A DNA stretch of 64,000 nt from contig JABFQN010000001.1 of the NCBI GenBank assembly GCA_019685555.1, forward strand, positions 1-64,000. The letters run 5' to 3'. This DNA is from Candidatus Bathyarchaeota archaeon A05DMB-3 (lineage in GTDB: Archaea; Thermoproteota; Bathyarchaeia; Bathyarchaeales; Bathycorpusculaceae). The position numbers and the translations under genes were made by a program. Below, in pieces: positions 18,250-48,275 of this stretch. The notes under the pieces are model-generated. The model saw only the letters and a program-made list of their open reading frames with translations, did not search any database and was not told the DNA's origin. Within the stretch, counting starts at the first letter, position 1, and each line of letters starts with the position of its first letter.

Positions 18250-19023
18250 TTAAAGTTTATCCATTTTGGCTGCAACTTCAGCTAATATGCGTGTGAAGGG
18301 GTGCTCCGGCTTGTCGTGGACAAAAATTATTTTTCCCTCAGCTCTTGAAACGTCGCAGAAGCATGGAATAACCCCCAAGAGAGGAACCTCGTATGTGTCT
18401 TTTACCATTGCTTGCAGCTTATCCCTTCCACTTCTCAAGGCATCATCGTACAAAACCTTGTTTAACACTATTTCGGTTTTCTTTTCAAAAAGGTCGTAGA
18501 GGTCCCGTAGCATCCGCCTTGTTCCTTCGACATCTGAATTGTCAAGGGTTGTAGCCACAATTACAATGTCGGCGCTTACGATGGCATTTATCGAAGAGTA
18601 TTGCAGTCCGGGGCTTGTGTCAAAGATTACGTAGTCAAAGCCCTTAGCGTTCAATAAGGAGTTTCTGAGGGAAAGCAGTCTTCCAAGAGCGCGCATTTCC
18701 CATTTCCTATCCTTTGAAGACATGTCCCTTATGGCTTCCACTGAAGGGTTAGCCAGCCCCACAAAAAACTTTCCTTGGTTGGCTATTCGGTCGCTTAAAT
18801 CTATCAAGGCCTTGTCTATTTCGCATACTCCGTTGAGGTAATCGTTAAGCCAATATTCCGCCTTGTCAATTTTTAACAGTGTGGAGAGGCTTGGCGCCCT
18901 AAAATCCAAATCTAGGAGGCACACTTTTTTACCGTGCTTAGCTAGGGTTACGGCTAAGTTTGTTGAAATGAGGGTTTTTCCCGTTCCACCCTTGTAAGAG
19001 TGAACTGCCACCATTTTGCCCAT
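18250..19023 (-). CDS. ParA/MinD-type ATPase
   Basis: The 257-residue deviant Walker ATPase has SYKGGTGKTLISTNLAVTLA at the start and LLDLDFRAPSLSTLL for Walker A-prime. Walker B follows at VIFDTSPGLQYS. No MinD-type C-terminal amphipathic helix is obvious, though the tail RILAEVAAKMDKL is helical. ParA/MinD proteins position DNA, chemoreceptors or division proteins by ATP-driven dimerisation. The gene follows a winged-helix protein gene by seven bases, so a two-gene ATPase/DNA-binding module is likely. Confidence 0.9.
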   Translation of the reverse strand: MGKMVAVHSYKGGTGKTLISTNLAVTLAKHGKKVCLLDLDFRAPSLSTLLKIDKAEYWLNDYLNGVCEIDKALIDLSDRIANQGKFFVGLANPSVEAIRDMSSKDRKWEMRALGRLLSLRNSLLNAKGFDYVIFDTSPGLQYSSINAIVSADIVIVATTLDNSDVEGTRRMLRDLYDLFEKKTEIVLNKVLYDDALRSGRDKLQAMVKDTYEVPLLGVIPCFCDVSRAEGKIIFVHDKPEHPFTRILAEVAAKMDKL

Positions 19024-19030
19024 GGCCTTT

Positions 19031-19408
19031 TCACCCCTGCCCTTCTTTCTCTATGTAGAAGTAGGCTTTTCGCCCTTGTCTCTCCTTTTTGAGGTATCCC
19101 ATAATAACCAGCTGGTTTAGATAGGCGCTTTCCACAGCCCTTGCCCTACGGGTTTGCTGGGCAACTTCGTCGGCTGTGGCGCGGCCAAGCCTACAGACGG
19201 TCATGGCTGTTTTTCTAAGGTGGTCTGGCATGGAGAGAAGCGTCATAACATCCAATGGGGCTTCTGAAGGAATTGGCTGAACATCTCGTCTTCCATGCTT
19301 CTGCAGTTCAATCATAACTTCCATTTTCTCGTTTAACCTTTCAAGGTTTTCCCTTATTTTTTCAAGTATTTGAAGGGGCTTCTTTCCAAGAACCTCCTTG
19401 TCTGCCAA
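19031..19408 (-). CDS. Coiled-coil plus winged-helix partner of the ParA-like ATPase
   Basis: In this 125-residue protein the first 40 residues form a coiled coil (LQILEKIRENLERLNEKMEVMIEL). A winged-helix domain follows (about 60-122: DHLRKTAMTVCRLGRATADEVAQQTRRA, then AYLNQLVIMGYLKKERQGRKAYFYI). It is encoded directly before the ParA-like ATPase and could be its DNA-binding adaptor, in the place ParB would hold. The start is TTG at 19408 after AAAAGG. Confidence 0.75.
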   Translation of the reverse strand: MADKEVLGKKPLQILEKIRENLERLNEKMEVMIELQKHGRRDVQPIPSEAPLDVMTLLSMPDHLRKTAMTVCRLGRATADEVAQQTRRARAVESAYLNQLVIMGYLKKERQGRKAYFYIEKEGQG

Positions 19409-41248: not shown

Positions 41249-42574
41249 TTAAGGTTTACGCGCCAGCAGTTCGGCTGCATGCCTTTCAGCCTTCTCAATG
41301 ACTGCTTGCTCGTCTAAGGTTTTCACTTGCCTATTTTCCATCAAAATTTTCCCATCAACTATAACCGTGTCCACGTCGCTTCCGCGGGCTGAATAAACTA
41401 AAGCAGCGCAAACATCATGTAAGGGCTTTAAATGCGGCTTCGAAAAATCAACCATTGTTATGTCGGCTTTTTTGCCCACCTCCAAAGAACCAATGCTAGT
41501 GTCAAGCCCCAAAGCCTTAGCTCCATTCAAAGTCGCCATCCTCAAAACTTCATAAGCTGACAAAACCCTAGAATCCAAATACGTAAGTTTCTGAAGCAAA
41601 GCACCAACATTTACTGTTTCAAACATGTCCAACGTGTTGTTGCTGGCTGCCCCATCAGTGCCTAAAGCCACGTTAACGCCTAACTCGACGAGCTCTTTAA
41701 TTCTTGCAGCGCCCAAACCAAGCTTCATGTTAGCCACTGGCACGTAAACAACGTTCACGCCACTCTCAGCCAAAACATGTCTATCATTGTCAGAAAGGTT
41801 GATGCAGTGAGCTGCAAGCACATGCCCCTCAAAAAACCCCAAATTATTAAGGAACTCGACCTCGCTGCAGCCGTACTTCTTTTCAAACTCCATAAACAAG
41901 TTTGCCGATTCAGCCAAATGCGTGTGAACGCCTATTCCAAGCTCTGAAGCTTTATCCTTAACCTTCCTAAGCAGTTCTGGACTGCAACTGTAAGCTGCAT
42001 GAGGCGCCAGCATGGCGGTTATTCTACCGTTGGCGTATCCGCTGAAATTCTTGGCAAAATTTACGCTTCTATTAAGCGTTTTTCCGCCCTGCTCCTTGTT
42101 TCCAGCTTCGATTATGCCTTCTGCTAAGACACCTCTTAAGCCGCTTTCAAAAACAGCCCTTGCCACCATATCCTCATGGAAATACATGTCCGCAAAACAC
42201 GTTGTCCCACTTTTCAACATTTCCAAACAGCCCAAAAGCGCTCCAACATAAATGTCTTCACAGTTAAGCCTAGCCTCCAACGGCCAAATCGTCTCCCTCA
42301 ACCAAACATCTAAAGGCTTGTCTTCGGCTAGCCCCCGAAAAAGAGTCATAGAAACATGCGTGTGACAGTTCACTAATCCAGGCATGGCAACCTTGCCTTT
42401 GGCATCTATCTTTTCCTCAGCGCTTATGCCTTCAGCCGACGTGCTTTTCCCAACAAAAATTATCCTTCCATTTTTTATGGCTATGGCGCCATCTTCAATT
42501 AGGCTTCTGCCGTCCATGGGCAAAACTGCGCATCCACGGATTAAGATATCTGCCTTTTCCAAAAATGCACCCAA
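41249..42574 (-). CDS. 5-methylthioadenosine/S-adenosylhomocysteine deaminase-like amidohydrolase
   Basis: The 441-residue amidohydrolase has the metal ligands HxH in LVNCHTHVSMTLFRG, His in VHTHLAES, His in VLAAHCINLSD and Asp in LGTDGAASNNTLDMF. It resembles MtaD/DadD, which deaminate methylthioadenosine, SAH or 5-deoxyadenosine, the by-product of radical SAM enzymes such as the two encoded here. The start is TTG at 42574. Confidence 0.88.
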   Translation of the reverse strand: MGAFLEKADILIRGCAVLPMDGRSLIEDGAIAIKNGRIIFVGKSTSAEGISAEEKIDAKGKVAMPGLVNCHTHVSMTLFRGLAEDKPLDVWLRETIWPLEARLNCEDIYVGALLGCLEMLKSGTTCFADMYFHEDMVARAVFESGLRGVLAEGIIEAGNKEQGGKTLNRSVNFAKNFSGYANGRITAMLAPHAAYSCSPELLRKVKDKASELGIGVHTHLAESANLFMEFEKKYGCSEVEFLNNLGFFEGHVLAAHCINLSDNDRHVLAESGVNVVYVPVANMKLGLGAARIKELVELGVNVALGTDGAASNNTLDMFETVNVGALLQKLTYLDSRVLSAYEVLRMATLNGAKALGLDTSIGSLEVGKKADITMVDFSKPHLKPLHDVCAALVYSARGSDVDTVIVDGKILMENRQVKTLDEQAVIEKAERHAAELLARKP

Positions 42575-42664
42575 AACTTAGAAGGAAATGGAAACTAATA
42601 AAATAAGTGCTGAAAGATTCCGGTTTTCAGGGTCTTTGTTAACAGTTGAGCAGTTTTAGGAGCC

Positions 42665-43084
42665 TTATAAGTGGAGCCCGTGGTTTTGTTCTTTCACCCT
42701 TTTTAATAGGGATGGCAACGCTGGCTGGGCTATGTCTTCTTCTATAGCAATTTCTTTTGGAATTCCAGTGGTGCCTATCTTCCTGCATATGAAGTTAAGG
42801 GAATCCTCTGTAAAGTTCAGGAGATTTCGCCCCTCTGTGGTAAGCTTATACACTTTTCTCGGTCTCTCGTTATTCATGTCCCACTCGCTTTTCACATACC
42901 CGCTTTTTTCAAGCGCGTTTAGCAAGGGATAAATGGTGCTTGGACCGAAATAAACGCCGAAGTTTTTGCGGATCTTCGTTATTATCTGGTAGCCGTGCAT
43001 GGGCTGGCTGCTGAGGAACTGGAGCACTATCAAGTCTAGGAGACCCTTCATGAGTTTAACCTGAACCTCTTTCGTGTTGTTCAT
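42665..43084 (-). CDS. PadR family transcriptional regulator
   Basis: The 139-residue PadR protein has the winged helix LLDLIVLQFLSSQPMHGYQIITKIRKNFGVYFGPSTIYPLLNALEKSGYVKSEW, followed by RPRKVYKLTTEGRNLL and a C-terminal dimerisation helix. It is divergent from a second PadR gene at 43326. Two perfect inverted repeats lie 26 and 57 bases upstream of its ATG, so autoregulation is likely. Confidence 0.92.
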   Translation of the reverse strand: MNNTKEVQVKLMKGLLDLIVLQFLSSQPMHGYQIITKIRKNFGVYFGPSTIYPLLNALEKSGYVKSEWDMNNERPRKVYKLTTEGRNLLNFTEDSLNFICRKIGTTGIPKEIAIEEDIAQPALPSLLKRVKEQNHGLHL

Positions 43085-43109
43085 GCGTGTTCCCTTCTAT
43101 TGTTGTTTT

Positions 43110-43132
43110 GTCTAACAGTTTTTCTGTTAGAC
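43110..43132. promoter_or_regulatory. Inverted repeat, operator 1
   Basis: GTCTAACAG (43110-43118) and CTGTTAGAC (43124-43132) are perfectly complementary around TTTTT. It sits 26 bases upstream of the ATG at 43084, in the expected promoter-to-leader region of the minus-strand PadR gene. Confidence 0.6.
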
Positions 43133-43140
43133 TTGGATAC

Positions 43141-43164
43141 GATATGTCCATTTTCAGACATATC
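43141..43164. promoter_or_regulatory. Inverted repeat, operator 2
   Basis: GATATGTC (43141-43148) and GACATATC (43157-43164) are perfectly complementary around eight bases. They contain ATGT and ACAT, the half-site type often bound by PadR proteins, with a ten-base gap rather than the common eight. Together with operator 1 it lies between the two divergent PadR genes, and either protein might use it. Confidence 0.6.
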
Positions 43165-43325
43165 TCAAGACCCTATAGAGCATAAACAAAAATATAAACC
43201 TTCATGTTCACCAAAAACATAAAAAAGCATAAACAAAGCATATCCCACGCTATTCCAAAAACCCCATAAAACATATAAACCAACAAAAATAAGTCAAAAA
43301 CAGAACACAAAAAGGCAGCCCGCAA

Positions 43326-43652
43326 ATGGAAGAAAACCTCAAAAAAGAAATTGTTCAACACATAACCAAAAACCTACTAGACATCCAAATACTAAGGCTC
43401 TTAAGCAAAGAACCAATGTGGGGATACAAAATAAAAAAGCAAGTGGAAGCAAATTACGAGGTAAAACTACGCCACGGAGCCCTATACCCACTGCTAAACG
43501 CACTAGAACAGAAGGGCTTTCTAAAAAGCCAGCAGCAACGTCAAGGAGGAAGAACGAGAAAAGTATACACAATAACAGAAAAAGGAAGGGGATATGTAGA
43601 AACCTATGACAGTATACTAAAAGAACAAATACAAAAACAAGACATAAAATAA
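43326..43652 (+). CDS. PadR family transcriptional regulator
   Basis: The 108-residue short PadR protein has NLLDIQILRLLSKEPMWGYKIKKQVEANYEVKLRHGALYPLLNALEQKGFLKSQQQRQGGRTRKVYTITEKGRGYV. It differs from its divergent neighbour in lacking the long C-terminal region. The polyprenyl synthetase begins five bases after its stop, so it probably controls that gene and the modified-peptide locus. The A-rich codon use resembles the next two genes more than the flanking chromosome. Confidence 0.9.
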   Translation: MEENLKKEIVQHITKNLLDIQILRLLSKEPMWGYKIKKQVEANYEVKLRHGALYPLLNALEQKGFLKSQQQRQGGRTRKVYTITEKGRGYVETYDSILKEQIQKQDIK

Positions 43653-43656
43653 AAAC

Positions 43657-44697
43657 ATGAGACCAAACAAAACTAGAAATGTTAAAAAAAGTTCTATACA
43701 AAGCAGAGAGATAAAACTCCACCGCAAAATGCAGGAATTCTTTGAAAAAGAAGGAAAAGAAACTTTCGAGAAAGTTAAAAAAGTAATTCTCGAGGAGAAA
43801 GTTGAATGCCAAGAGGTTCAAAAGGCATTGTGTTATTTTCTGTCTTATGGGCGAAAGGGCTTCTTGGTAAGGCCAACATTAATTTCCTTAGGAAGCAAAG
43901 CTGTTAGAGGAGACATTAGTTTAATATCAGAGATAGCAAAGCCGTTGGTACTAATTAGTGCTGGCATGGACATTCATGATGATATTCTTGATAACCAAAA
44001 AATACAAAATCGTAGGCTTACTGTTTTTGGAAAGTTCAATAAGGACATTGCATTGCTTGCTGGAGATGCTCTTATTTTTAAAGGCTTGATATCCTGGTGC
44101 CAGATATCTAATAAGTTTCCAATGCAAAAATTTATCGAGATGACCTTGCTTTTGGAGAAAGCATTTTTTGAACTTGGCGCTGGTCAAGCACAAGAAGTAA
44201 ACTTGAAAAGACAGATAAATGTTAATCCAGAACATTACATGCAAATAGTAAAGAAAAAAGCAGCAGATATAGAAGCACTCCTTCACATAGGTGCCCTTCT
44301 AGGCAATGCATCGCAAAAGGAAACTGAAGCTTTGAGCAATTACGGTCGATGCATTGGAATGCTGTGGGTATTAGGAGATGACATAGTAGATATGTTTGAC
44401 CACAATGAACTAAAGCGAAGAATAAAGCATGGATGTTTGCCACTTCCATTATTTTATGCTATGGAAAATCCAAAAATTAAAGCTCAGCTTCGCAAAATTT
44501 TTCTAAAAAAGAGGATAACAAGAAAGGATACAGAAACCATACTGGAAGTAGTAATGAAATCTGCGGGGTTCGAGAAGACTAAAAATGTTATGAAAAAATT
44601 GGTTTTAAAAGCATCAAAAAATGTTGAAGAATTCGCAAATTTTAAAAATCTAAAATTACTAATAGAAGACTATCAAAATTTTATCGAACAGATATAG
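43657..44697 (+). CDS. Divergent polyprenyl synthetase (ComQ-like candidate)
   Basis: The 346-residue trans-isoprenyl diphosphate synthase superfamily protein has a first Asp-rich motif DDILD at 108-112 (DIHDDILDNQ), followed by NRRLTVFG. The second motif is DDIVD at 241-245 (LGDDIVDMFD). The usual GGKRxRP is GRKGFLVRP, and the tail HGCLPLPLFYAMENP is typical. It either makes a prenyl diphosphate or, as ComQ does in Bacillus, prenylates a peptide. It follows a PadR gene by five bases and converges on a 20-residue peptide gene with a Trp-containing C-terminus. The MFS and radical SAM/SPASM genes come next. The C-terminal 70 residues are Lys-rich. I am sure of the family; the peptide substrate is inference. 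Confidence 0.85.
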   Translation: MRPNKTRNVKKSSIQSREIKLHRKMQEFFEKEGKETFEKVKKVILEEKVECQEVQKALCYFLSYGRKGFLVRPTLISLGSKAVRGDISLISEIAKPLVLISAGMDIHDDILDNQKIQNRRLTVFGKFNKDIALLAGDALIFKGLISWCQISNKFPMQKFIEMTLLLEKAFFELGAGQAQEVNLKRQINVNPEHYMQIVKKKAADIEALLHIGALLGNASQKETEALSNYGRCIGMLWVLGDDIVDMFDHNELKRRIKHGCLPLPLFYAMENPKIKAQLRKIFLKKRITRKDTETILEVVMKSAGFEKTKNVMKKLVLKASKNVEEFANFKNLKLLIEDYQNFIEQI

Positions 44698-44702
44698 AAA
44701 AA

Positions 44703-44765
44703 CTAAAGTGAAAACCAACCATATCCATATCTAACTGGAACTTTCTTCTTTTCTTTTTTGGCCAT
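44703..44765 (-). CDS. 20-aa aromatic peptide, candidate precursor of a modified peptide
   Basis: The ATG at 44765 opens 20 codons ending in TAG at 44703. The product has a lysine-rich leader MAKKEKKK and an aromatic C-terminus VPVRYGYGWFSL. GGTGA lies seven bases upstream, and a BRE/TATA box lies at 44815-44828. The gene lies between a polyprenyl synthetase and an MFS gene, and a radical SAM/SPASM gene follows. This layout fits a precursor peptide. The Trp near the C-terminus recalls ComX, which ComQ prenylates on Trp. Its short length means chance cannot be excluded, but promoter, Shine-Dalgarno and context agree. Confidence 0.6.
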   Translation of the reverse strand: MAKKEKKKVPVRYGYGWFSL

Positions 44766-44814
44766 CTCCTTTCACCTACATAATTGTTGTACACATATAC
44801 ACTTAAAAAACTTT

Positions 44815-44828
44815 CTATAAAATTTCGG
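44815..44828 (-). promoter_or_regulatory. BRE/TATA promoter of the 20-aa peptide gene
   Basis: On the minus strand CCGAAA (44823-44828) is followed by TTTTATAG (44815-44822). This is the same arrangement as the iron operon promoter at 8298-8313. A start about 25 bases downstream leaves a leader of roughly 28 bases containing GGTGA before the peptide ATG. Confidence 0.6.
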
Positions 44829-44879
44829 CTACAAGGTTTTAAAGCATCATAAGTAAATTATACTCTATGGGAATCTCCT

Positions 44880-46109
44880 TTGCATAAAAGAGAACAACTC
44901 TCATCGCCGTTTGAAATAATAAGAAATAAGCTTGCTGCTTTCATTCTAGTATTTTTCACCCTATCATGGTGGTCTCTAAGCCTATTAGTTTTCAAAAATT
45001 TCTGTCAGCCAATGGAAGCGCTTAATCCATCAATAGTTATTATCGCTCGTGCTTTATACTGCACATCAATAATTACCTTTAGCATAATTGCGTCGTTCAT
45101 AAATAAAAGAATCAGAAGGTTGCCATTTCTTTATTATTGGATGCTTATGGGCACATTTTTCTCATTAATCCCAATCCTGCTTAACAGGTTTGATCAACAG
45201 CACCTTTTTTTTGCTTCCGTCACGCTGGGATTTGCGTTTGGCATCGGTCTTCCATCATGTTTAGCTTTTTTTGCAGATATGACGAACTTTGAAAATCGCG
45301 GTAGCTTAAGCGGAGTGGTTTTTCTGATAAGTAGTTTGATCGTTGGTATAATTGCGGTTATATTGTCTGGCACTGATTTAAAAATTACAGCCTTATCCGC
45401 TGGATTGTGGAGAGTTGTTGGATTAATTTTGTTTGCCTTACTTCTGCCTAAAAAAGAAGGTGAAGCCAAAGCGCATATACACACTTCGTTCAGTTCCATT
45501 TTTGGAAATAGACATTTTCTACTTTATTTTATTCCTTGGTGTGCATTTTCTTTAATTGAATGGTTCGAAAGTCCAATAAGAATGAATGTTTTCGGGGAAT
45601 TCGCAACGTTAGCAGAAATAATAGGAGTAACCTTAGGAGGTATCTCAGCTGCTATAGGGGGTGTCTTTTCTGATCGAGTTGGAAGAAAGATAATTGTGCT
45701 TTATAGTTTTGTTTCGATCGGAATTGCCTATGCTACTCTGTCTATTTTGCCTACTAACATTTTAGTATGGTGGTTCTTCGCTGTAGTTGATGCGGTAGCA
45801 TTTGGATCCATATACATCATTTTTATATTAACAATATGGGGTGATCTAAGTCGACAAAGTGAAAGACAAAAATATTATGCCATCGGAACTATACCCTTTT
45901 TTCTTGCAGGAATTTTAGAGCTTGTAGTTAGGCCTTATGTTGCATCCATACGTCCTGAAGCCGCTTTCTCCCTTGCTTCGTTTTTCTTATTTATTGCTGT
46001 TATCCCTCTGCTCTTTGCGCCTGAAACACTTCCAGAAAAAACGATTAAAGAAAGAGAGCTTAAGGAATACGTTGAAAAGGCTAAGAAGGTTAAGGAAAAG
46101 TACGGTTAA
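44880..46109 (+). CDS. MFS transporter, candidate exporter of the peptide locus
   Basis: The 409-residue protein has about twelve membrane helices. The first segments are LAAFILVFFTLSWWSLSLLVF and IIARALYCTSIITFSIIASF, and the MFS loop GGVFSDRVGRKIIVLYS lies mid-protein. The tail PETLPEKTIKERELKEYVEKAKKVKEKYG is charged. The start is TTG 44880 without a clear Shine-Dalgarno sequence. It overlaps no gene and is followed 19 bases later by the radical SAM gene on the same strand. Export of the peptide or its prenylated form is inferred from context. Confidence 0.85.
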   Translation: MHKREQLSSPFEIIRNKLAAFILVFFTLSWWSLSLLVFKNFCQPMEALNPSIVIIARALYCTSIITFSIIASFINKRIRRLPFLYYWMLMGTFFSLIPILLNRFDQQHLFFASVTLGFAFGIGLPSCLAFFADMTNFENRGSLSGVVFLISSLIVGIIAVILSGTDLKITALSAGLWRVVGLILFALLLPKKEGEAKAHIHTSFSSIFGNRHFLLYFIPWCAFSLIEWFESPIRMNVFGEFATLAEIIGVTLGGISAAIGGVFSDRVGRKIIVLYSFVSIGIAYATLSILPTNILVWWFFAVVDAVAFGSIYIIFILTIWGDLSRQSERQKYYAIGTIPFFLAGILELVVRPYVASIRPEAAFSLASFFLFIAVIPLLFAPETLPEKTIKERELKEYVEKAKKVKEKYG

Positions 46110-46128
46110 AATACAAATGAGGTACAGT

Positions 46129-47250
46129 ATGTTATTTCATGTAATATTGACAACAGAATACAATCTCAAATGCAAATATTGTTTTGGTGAAGCTTTAGAG
46201 GATTTTGATTCTGTGTTTTATGGTTTTGATGTTGATTATTCCTTGCCTAAGCGGATAGGTTATGATGTTGGTTTGTTGGATAAGTTTTGTGGACAAGATT
46301 CGGATTGTGTTTTGGTTTTTTATGGGGGTGAGCCTTTGCTTTGTTTGGATGATGTTAAGCGTATAATGGACACGGTTAGGGCGAGGCGTTTTGTTGTTCA
46401 GACTAATGGTTTGCATCTTGACGGTTTAGAATCCACTTATGTAAATCGGTTGAGCGTTATTTTGGTTTCTGTGGATGGCGATGAAGGCTTAACTGATTTT
46501 TATCGGGGGCGGGGTGTTTTCCGCAAGGTCGTCGATAATTTGAGGGTTGTTAGGCGTAATGGCTTTAGTGGCGAGGTTATTGCGAGGATGACGGTTATGG
46601 AGGAGACTGACATTTACAAGCAGGTTTTATGGCTTCTCAATAATGAAGAGTTTGCTTTTTCCGCTGTTCATTGGCAGTTGAATGCTGGGTTTTGGAGCGA
46701 CTTTGAGAGACGAAAGTTTAAGGAATGGAGCGAGAAAAGCTATAATCCAGGAATTCGTAGGCTTGTGCGGTTTTGGGTTGACCAAATGGAAAAGCGTGGT
46801 GCGGTTTTGCGTCTTTATCCGTTTTTGGGTGTGGCGCAGTCTCTTTTGTTCGGCGAGGAGAAATCGCTTTTAAGATGTGGCGCTGGATGGATAAACTATG
46901 CTATACAAACGGATGGCTACATTGTGCCTTGCCCTAGCATGTGGGGCATGCGAGACTTTTACTTGGGACATATAAGCACGGCGGACCCGTTGAGGCTAAA
47001 GAAGGTTTATGTCGGCGAACCATGCACAAACTGCAAAATTTTTGGCCTATGCGGAGGAAGATGCCTATACGCAAACGTTACTAGGCGGTGGAGCCCAGAA
47101 GCCTACAAGCTTGTTTGCAGAACCGTTGAGAACATGATAGACGCCATAAAGGCGGAAACGCCACGGATAAGGCAGCTTATCAAAAATGGAAAGATAAAAA
47201 TGGAAGATTTCGAATTTATGAAGTACGTTGGCTGTGAGATAATCCCCTAG
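46129..47250 (+). CDS. Radical SAM/SPASM protein with Tyr replacing the first cluster cysteine
   Basis: The protein is about 373 residues. The N-terminus MLFHVILTTEYNLKCKYCFGEA has the radical SAM cluster loop, but the first Cys of CX3CX2C is Tyr11 (TAC instead of TGC); Cys15 and Cys18 remain. VFYGGEPLL and the SAM-barrel strands follow. A Cys-rich C-terminal SPASM-like region follows (RCGAGWINYAIQTDGYIVPCPS, GEPCTNCKIFGLCGGRC, VCRTVE), normally holding auxiliary [4Fe-4S] clusters. SPASM enzymes usually modify peptides. The Tyr may inactivate the enzyme or alter cluster binding. The start at 46129 has GAGGT five bases upstream; the frame is open far upstream, and ATG 46117 is an alternative. 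Confidence 0.85.
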   Translation: MLFHVILTTEYNLKCKYCFGEALEDFDSVFYGFDVDYSLPKRIGYDVGLLDKFCGQDSDCVLVFYGGEPLLCLDDVKRIMDTVRARRFVVQTNGLHLDGLESTYVNRLSVILVSVDGDEGLTDFYRGRGVFRKVVDNLRVVRRNGFSGEVIARMTVMEETDIYKQVLWLLNNEEFAFSAVHWQLNAGFWSDFERRKFKEWSEKSYNPGIRRLVRFWVDQMEKRGAVLRLYPFLGVAQSLLFGEEKSLLRCGAGWINYAIQTDGYIVPCPSMWGMRDFYLGHISTADPLRLKKVYVGEPCTNCKIFGLCGGRCLYANVTRRWSPEAYKLVCRTVENMIDAIKAETPRIRQLIKNGKIKMEDFEFMKYVGCEIIP

Positions 47251-47317
47251 TTTTTACAGTGTTTCTTCTGCTTAACAGTCTCTGTCTGCTGCAAACCCGA
47301 GAAGCTCTTTTTGGATG

Positions 47318-47551
47318 TTATTTTCTGTTTTGAACTATGCTTTCTATCGTTATGGCGAATCTGCAGCTGTCGCAGAGTCCGTCATCGCCCGTTGCGTTTC
47401 TTTTGCCACATTTTACGCATTTAACAGAGTCAGCACTTTTGCTTTTTGGAAGACTCCTTTCAACATTTTTATCCAGATTTGATAGAGTGGCGCGGGAGTG
47501 TGGATATGGTTTATGAAGGCGGGATACAGATTTAAACTCAGCAAACGTCAA
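47318..47551 (-). CDS. Small zinc-ribbon protein
   Basis: The 77-residue protein has a C-terminal zinc ribbon CVKCGKRNATGDDGLCDSCRF (residues 43-63) after a poorly structured basic N-terminal half. TTG at 47551 is the only available start; no Shine-Dalgarno sequence is seen, so it may be leaderless. It is divergent from sfsA with only seven bases between starts. The CXXC pairs make it likely to be real. Confidence 0.55.
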   Translation of the reverse strand: MTFAEFKSVSRLHKPYPHSRATLSNLDKNVERSLPKSKSADSVKCVKCGKRNATGDDGLCDSCRFAITIESIVQNRK

Positions 47552-47558
47552 AATTTAT

Positions 47559-48275
47559 GTGGAGTTTAGATTGACTAGCTTCATTGAAATAAGAGGGAAA
47601 ATCTTTGAGGGAGTTTTTGAGAGGAGGCTAACTCGTTTCTCAGCCTTGGTTAGGGTTAATGGAGAAATCGAACAGTGTTTTTTGCCTAATCCTGGAAGGC
47701 TCAGAGAACTCTTGATTTCTGGCGTAAAGGTAATTTTAAAAGAGGCGGAGGCTGTGGGCGAGAGGAAAACCATTTATGACCTTTTAGGCGTCTATAGCGG
47801 AGGAAAAATCGTTTCAATCGACTCGCGTTTGCCTAACAAGCTTGTTTTGGAAGCGTTGAAGAATGGAGACTTGCCAGAGTTCCTTGGATACACGATGGTT
47901 AAGCCCGAATACTCTTATGGACATGTAAAGTTTGACTTTTTTCTAAGCGATGGAAGAAGACCTTGCCTTTTAGAAGTTAAATCGTGCACTCTTGTCCGCA
48001 ATGGTGTGGCAATGTTTCCAGACGCGCCAACAGAAAGAGGCACCAGACATGTTTTAGAGCTTGCCAAAGCCTTAAATGAAGGTTATAGGGCTGCTGTGCT
48101 TTTTGTCATTCAGAGGATGGACGCTTACATGTTTACGCCCAATGATGAGACAGACCCAAATTTTGGAGAGGCTTTGCGGAAAGCCGCTGAAAGTGGAGTT
48201 GAAGTTTATGCTTATTCGACAAATTTTAACAAAAACAGAATAAGTCTTTGTGGAAAGGTTAAGGTTGCGCTTTAA
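47559..48275 (+). CDS. sfsA: SfsA family DNA-binding/nuclease-like protein
   Basis: The 238-residue SfsA homologue has an OB-like N-terminal part (GVFERRLTRFSALVRVNGEIEQCFLPNPGRLRELL). A PD-(D/E)XK-like core follows: YGHVKFDFFLSDGRRPCLLEVKSCTLVRNGVAMFPDAPTERGTRHV. It carries the conserved Asp, Glu-x-Lys and PTxRG strings. The family was named for sugar fermentation stimulation in E. coli, and its biochemical role is not firmly established. GTG 47559 or TTG 47571 (after GGAG) may be the start. Confidence 0.92.
   Translation: MEFRLTSFIEIRGKIFEGVFERRLTRFSALVRVNGEIEQCFLPNPGRLRELLISGVKVILKEAEAVGERKTIYDLLGVYSGGKIVSIDSRLPNKLVLEALKNGDLPEFLGYTMVKPEYSYGHVKFDFFLSDGRRPCLLEVKSCTLVRNGVAMFPDAPTERGTRHVLELAKALNEGYRAAVLFVIQRMDAYMFTPNDETDPNFGEALRKAAESGVEVYAYSTNFNKNRISLCGKVKVAL

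Follow-up and report, generated by a model that had tools for sequence, protein, structure and literature searches.

The window analysed here, a stretch of 64,000 nucleotides (nt) at the start of contig JABFQN010000001.1 of Candidatus Bathyarchaeota archaeon A05DMB-3, carries a three-gene cassette composed of a gene for a polyprenyl-synthetase-fold protein (PPS), a tiny antisense gene for a peptide precursor and a gene for a carrier of the major facilitator superfamily (MFS). Across related archaea these three genes form a sharply bounded hypervariable island with allele-like exchange, and it is almost certain that they make up a single functional unit that is diversifying fast. On balance we favour the view that this unit is an archaeal system for prenylated peptides of the ComX kind, one whose alleles can be exchanged. 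A first-pass annotation of the window had pictured a small signal or ribosomally synthesised and post-translationally modified peptide (RiPP) system at this locus; the cassette is real, although its key trait, the allele-like hypervariability, is invisible from one window.

The limits of the island are evident from comparisons within genus g9, in which PPS and the MFS carrier show 36% and 38% identity while the genes on the upstream side (an amidohydrolase, AmHy, 78%; the PadR-family regulators PadR2, 78%, and PadR1, 79%) and on the downstream side (a radical S-adenosylmethionine (SAM) protein, 80%; SfsA, 69%; Fer4, 84%) are conserved. The housekeeping geranylgeranyl diphosphate (GGPP) synthase shows 86% identity between genomes G000 and G008. 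A PadR gene is kept upstream of PPS in families f1, f2, f4, f6 and f7, yet lies outside the hypervariable island. The window and locus L028 belong to different genera and carry one allele (PPS 73% and MFS 72% identical, with PVRxGxGWFxx in common). Their neighbours do not have this allele, although the radical SAM genes are just as close. PPS and MFS distances are correlated (Mantel 0.64, and 0.68 in a partial test with the radical SAM distance removed), whereas the correlation of PPS with radical SAM distances is only 0.20. Whether the peptide core contains tryptophan (Trp) changes three times on the PPS tree and on the MFS tree; chance would give about 11.5, no shuffle out of 2000 came as low as three, and the radical SAM tree needs nine changes. 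MFS, like PPS, co-varies with core type. Core length class is less discriminating, at four changes for PPS and for MFS and five for radical SAM. Selection for diversity in how the partners recognise each other would best account for such extreme allelic variation in the island between conserved flanks.

The 20-codon minus-strand gene that the first-pass annotation had picked out is a genuine precursor-like gene, beyond chance, as judged from homologues at about 82 loci, from synonymous changes and from a boundary rule that scores above its controls. In some 20 initial relatives gene order was identical and a tiny minus-strand open reading frame (ORF) was present in the PPS-MFS gap of nearly all. 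Where relatives have named records, these are mostly Bathyarchaeota metagenome-assembled genomes. Extension of the survey to more genomes and families gave 73 precursors of type I and three of a second type, with antisense tiny genes in the PPS-MFS gap at about 73 Bathyarchaeia loci and at nine more in a lineage of the phylum that is only distantly related. The precursors are 10-23 codons long. Their leaders are rich in lysine (Lys) and arginine (Arg) and end in Arg, usually as Pro-x-Arg, and the cores that follow are hypervariable, being 2-9 residues in length with 71 distinct sequences among 73; Trp occurs in 54 of these, the last Trp most often at -2. The window precursor consists of the Lys-rich leader MAKKEKKKVPVR, ending in PVR, and the core YGYGWFSL. 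A rule built on the Pro-x-Arg boundary (the P-x-R rule), formulated after examples including the loci of family f30 were known and hence not blind, finds an antisense ORF in 61 of 87 PPS-MFS gaps; of its two controls, the sense strand gives 2/87 and dinucleotide shuffles average 0.6/87. It supersedes an earlier ORF rule, likewise post hoc and over-strict on region and charge, which had given 49/81.

Further evidence comes from close pairs of precursors, in which the leader is conserved and synonymous changes are seen; the sister allele at L028, MAKKRKKNVPVRWGSGWFTV, shows five synonymous codon differences from the window gene, including one at the stop codon. In 55 of 76 precursor genes the element TGTNNNACA lies between 12 and 50 nt before the start (at most four in 200 shuffles). 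A TATA-like box also lies upstream of precursor genes, and judged from these two signals the precursor gene seems to be transcribed on its own and under regulation. The conserved C-terminal residues that the first-pass annotation proposed to look for did not materialise, the cores having no invariant residue. A fixed YG.GW motif was rejected as a family signature since it is allele-specific, matched the window only and would wrongly discard the gene. In one subclade (L091, L104, L105 and L143) a second tiny gene lies upstream of PPS, two precursors thus flanking one PPS. The second precursors differ in the leader and match in the last four to five residues (TGGWY, TGWY, SAGWM and LTGWY), which argues that selection acts on the C-terminus and that this is the functional part of the peptide. 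A leader and a variable core beside a modifying enzyme and a transporter is the arrangement by which RiPP precursors are recognised, and the cassette displays it. At L077 and L117, which belong to a deep PPS subclade, the usual precursor is replaced in the gap by a conserved antisense ORF of 32 residues (MCKKAKIP...GPEQKWPA).

In the tree, all PPS proteins of the cassette group together as a single clade on a long branch, apart from the housekeeping enzymes. Clustering with the lineage's housekeeping GGPP synthase, an outcome that the first-pass annotation had named as damaging to its proposal, was not seen, and tree and motifs together rule out that PPS is this enzyme. The first aspartate-rich motif (FARM, DDxxD) is invariant in 32 of 32 aligned PPS, and the GGKR, RR, FQ and GKxT motifs present in the housekeeping paralogue are absent. 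The second aspartate-rich motif (SARM) is mostly R[DE][DE]xxD, with the last Asp alone invariant in the 32 proteins; the window and L028 copies retain DDxxD. The earlier description of a prenyl synthase with both motifs therefore holds for the window copy but not for most relatives, in which the second is degenerate. An AlphaFold2 model of PPS (pLDDT 92) gave the GGPP synthase 1wy0 as the top PDB match in Foldseek, with a TM score of 0.80-0.85, and the Trp prenyltransferase Ord1 (9v4g-9v4j) was also among the matches. ComQ has been shown to keep the FARM and to have a pseudo-SARM (PMC5331326). A donor motif that is kept and isopentenyl diphosphate (IPP)-binding motifs that are gone is the pattern expected of a ComQ-like peptide prenyltransferase, and PPS probably prenylates the core; by analogy we say that it would function in the manner of ComQ, and do not claim that it is a ComQ. 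One PPS subclade pairs with Trp-less cores, for example AGP, ILG and TFPF.

We propose that the cassette would make and export a very short modified peptide. The precursor would be expressed from a regulated promoter of its own and recognised by its Lys/Arg-rich leader and Pro-x-Arg boundary, and PPS would prenylate the core at the C-terminus, using Trp if the core has one. A protease would cut the leader off at the basic boundary, and the MFS carrier, proposed as exporter of the peptide or as its partner, would either carry the product out of the cell or make the system specific for it. The product would be a peptide signal or a means of kin recognition under PadR control, an archaeal counterpart of the comQXP pherotypes. 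For the product being a signal we see the scales as level. It is plausible, if somewhat short of probable, that the system is one of pheromone or kin recognition with exchangeable pherotypes in at least two deep lineages, and that one PPS subclade modifies Trp-free cores of 2-4 residues.

Several observations weigh against this proposal. As 19 of 73 cores have no Trp, universal Trp prenylation is impossible, and the earlier suggestion of ComQ-type Trp prenylation is upheld as regards the motifs of PPS but not as regards a universal target. The characterised enzymes of this prenyltransferase type, which takes in ComQ, PalQ and ChrPC-P, are all Trp-specific, and known Trp prenyltransferases use a conserved Gln for Trp recognition just upstream of the SARM (PMC13290415); none of the 32 aligned PPS has a Gln at this position. 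No recognisable precursor was found at the PPS-MFS loci L054 and L067/L147 or in the deep PPS subclade, and the neighbours at the locus (PadR, MFS and radical SAM) include no receptor such as a ComP-like kinase. Lastly, hypervariability is also compatible with an antagonistic peptide combined with self-immunity. Such a product would be bacteriocin-like and directed against close relatives, the MFS carrier would serve both export and self-immunity, and killing and resistance would drive diversity. PPS, MFS and core co-vary and swap together as a toxin with matched immunity would, no signal receptor gene is at the locus, and prenylation of short membrane-active peptides alters antimicrobial activity (PMC13290415). 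There is no separate immunity gene, however, and the presence of the cassette in 41 of 53 good f1 genomes, at a fixed position and with PadR neighbours, resembles a housekeeping signalling locus more than a mobile bacteriocin; we consider antagonism rather unlikely. Very improbable, in our judgement, is the explanation that PPS is a true prenyl-diphosphate or terpene synthase, that the MFS carrier exports a small isoprenoid and that the tiny gene has nothing to do with either, yielding a regulatory peptide or an antisense transcript. The trans-isoprenyl diphosphate synthase (trans-IDS) fold, both Asp-rich regions in the window PPS and geranylgeranyl-reductase-like neighbours at some loci would agree with it. 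Against it stand the loss of IPP-binding motifs throughout the PPS clade, the tracking of the PPS tree by core sequence, the four loci at which one PPS is flanked by two precursors with different leaders and an identical C-terminus, and the amino-acid conservation with synonymous changes, which favours a translated peptide.

The first-pass annotation had placed a fourth gene in the pathway, with the radical SAM/SPASM protein cross-linking or otherwise modifying the peptide that PPS prenylates. The protein is a member of a curated SPASM-domain family, TIGR04084 (AF0577), and in about 50 f1 loci its gene lies directly 3' of MFS, usually within 50 nt. In family f1 the four large genes do travel together, with radical SAM in 41 of 41 good PPS genomes, radical SAM alone in seven and neither in five (Fisher p 0.0003). 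Outside f1 they do not: good genomes there comprise 11 with both, 11 with PPS only, 15 with radical SAM only and 30 with neither (p 0.29), the radical SAM gene is not adjacent to the cassette, and in nine of 12 genomes of distant lineages it is elsewhere in the genome. Radical SAM is thus absent from half of the good non-f1 cassette genomes and persists without the cassette, and these counts refute it as an obligatory partner. It evolves slowly on a tree that does not track core type, and the cores offer it no invariant residue as a target. In addition, the window protein has YxxxCxxC in place of CxxxCxxC, with TAC (Tyr) at 46159-46161, which may be a real loss or an assembly or sequencing error; the first cluster Cys is present in 73 of 76 scanned radical SAM proteins, and of the two further non-Cys cases one is a false match and one comes from a truncated frame. 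The single modified-peptide unit foreseen at this locus consequently stands as PPS, peptide and MFS, with radical SAM outside it, and we regard the four-gene pathway as unlikely. In f1 the enzyme may be an optional tailoring enzyme or a mere neighbour; that it acts on the peptide there is conceivable, though doubtful. The family is widespread without the cassette, and we know of no target peptide for it. No convincing tiny peptide gene was found beside stand-alone radical SAM genes, a structure search returned general SPASM enzymes only, and literature on TIGR04084 or AF0577 yielded nothing useful. A C-terminal EIIP is retained from close to very distant TIGR04084 relatives in the alignment.

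A second lineage carries the cassette of PPS, precursor and MFS. Family f30 has PPS relatives at about 270-300 bits, an MFS gene that follows PPS in most loci long enough to tell and antisense tiny ORFs between the two (for example, written as leader/core, MKSYNPTPVR/LWVPG and MKKYNPTPIR/LWAPLP), tandemly duplicated at L169. At L169, L171-L173, L175 and L178-L180 a membrane protein is encoded immediately upstream of PPS. The EExxFR, FxxxH and HxxxN motifs of CPBP/Rce1-type membrane proteases are invariant in eight of eight of these proteins, and the CPBP-like assignment was made from these three motifs; unlike that group they have no Pfam match up to E 5, bar a weak one to 60KD_IMP, and none was found beside Bathyarchaeia cassettes. 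Eight loci have a secreted trypsin-like protease gene as a neighbour; such a gene adjoins the second precursor at L091, L104 and L143 and also accompanies separate second-type cassettes. Cleavage behind basic residues by a protease of this type would match the proposed cut at the Arg boundary. Geranylgeranyl-reductase-like genes, scoring below the Pfam cut-off, lie at varying positions beside about 11 Bathyarchaeia cassettes. The three kinds of accessory gene fit prenylation and leader cleavage, and by guilt of association the reductase-like and CPBP-like genes point to prenyl-peptide chemistry. The structure search with the MFS carrier gave only a weak match to SV2B. A MinD/ParA-like ATPase gene is convergent with MFS, mostly 3-24 nt away, in loci outside f1 (L069, L071, L124, L127, L129, L134, L136, L145, L146, L148, L169-L171, L173, L178 and L179); in the window such a gene lies at 18253-19050, far from the cassette.

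The features of the window locus are collected in Table 1. The four plus-strand genes and the minus-strand gene are where the first-pass annotation had placed them, apart from the start of the radical SAM gene, corrected to ATG 46117, and its families (PadR, polyprenyl synthetase fold, MFS and radical SAM/SPASM) are borne out by Pfam and TIGR04084 matches. The distance from PadR1 to PPS is 4 nt and that from MFS to radical SAM, counted to that ATG, is 7 nt; the locus is therefore made up of two short operons (PadR with PPS, MFS with radical SAM), between which the precursor gene runs antisense. The inverted repeat between the PadR genes is a possible PadR operator. An Rfam scan of 42500-47600 found no RNA family. 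The amidohydrolase gene (41249-42574) is kept beside PadR2 also at loci that have no radical SAM gene nearby.

Table 1. Genes and sequence elements of the cassette locus, in window coordinates
Feature	Position	Strand	Remarks
PadR-family regulator (PadR1)	43326-43652	+	PF03551, 73 bits
PPS (polyprenyl-synthetase-fold protein)	43657-44697	+	PF00348, 92.7 bits; DDILD and DDIVD both found
Tiny precursor gene MAKKEKKKVPVRYGYGWFSL	44703-44765	-	20 codons; ribosome-binding site GGTGAAAGGAG
MFS carrier	44880-46109	+	PF07690, 56.7 bits; proposed TTG start
Radical SAM/SPASM protein	46117-47250	+	TIGR04084, 312.6 bits (cut-off 225 bits)
Second PadR-family regulator (PadR2), divergent	42665-43084	-	PF03551; neighbour kept in relatives
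Operator-like element TGTACAACA	44785-44793	-	Upstream of precursor gene
TATA-like box TTTTTTAAG	44802-44810	-	Just upstream of operator-like element
Inverted repeat ATATGTCcattttcaGACATAT	43142-43163	no strand	Between both PadR genes

Precursors of 10-23 codons are easily missed by gene finders, and this system could therefore go unnoticed although about half of the class's good genomes have it. If the proposed prenylated-peptide system is correct, it would provide for discrimination of kin and non-kin in abundant, largely uncultured sediment archaea, supply about 70 natural enzyme-peptide pairs for probing prenyltransferase specificity and probably extend this enzyme class to prenylation at a non-Trp residue. 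The first-pass annotation knew of no characterised archaeal pathway of this make-up, and a literature search that covered few subscription journals and no preprints likewise found no archaeal prenylated peptide signal or comparable Bathyarchaeia RiPP system, which is weak evidence.

The closest known system is that of ComQ and ComX (comQXPA; Bacillus and some Clostridiales), loci for which were found in Firmicutes alone in a 2014 census (PMC4008528). The cassette differs from it in being archaeal, in having a precursor of 10-23 residues on the opposite strand, in the lack of Trp from a quarter of cores and of the Gln beside the SARM from PPS, and in having an MFS carrier in place of ComP/ComA, neither a ComP kinase nor a ComA regulator lying beside the enzyme and peptide genes. 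The two have in common a prenyltransferase of trans-IDS fold with the FARM kept and the SARM degenerate, and a small precursor that is most variable at its C-terminal core, where a Trp often stands 1-4 residues before the end; variation in ComX is likewise greatest at the C-terminus (PMC4008528). As in comQXPA, enzyme and peptide are polymorphic between conserved flanks, and the membrane protein is polymorphic together with them. Of the Trp prenyltransferases, PalQ, acting with PalX in Paenibacillus, and Ord1 have the conserved Gln for Trp that is missing from cassette PPS, and PalX has an NHLP leader domain (PMC10853753) unlike the cassette precursor. Fold and donor logic are nevertheless common to these enzymes and PPS, and PalQ favours Gly before Trp, a combination that is common in the cassette cores.

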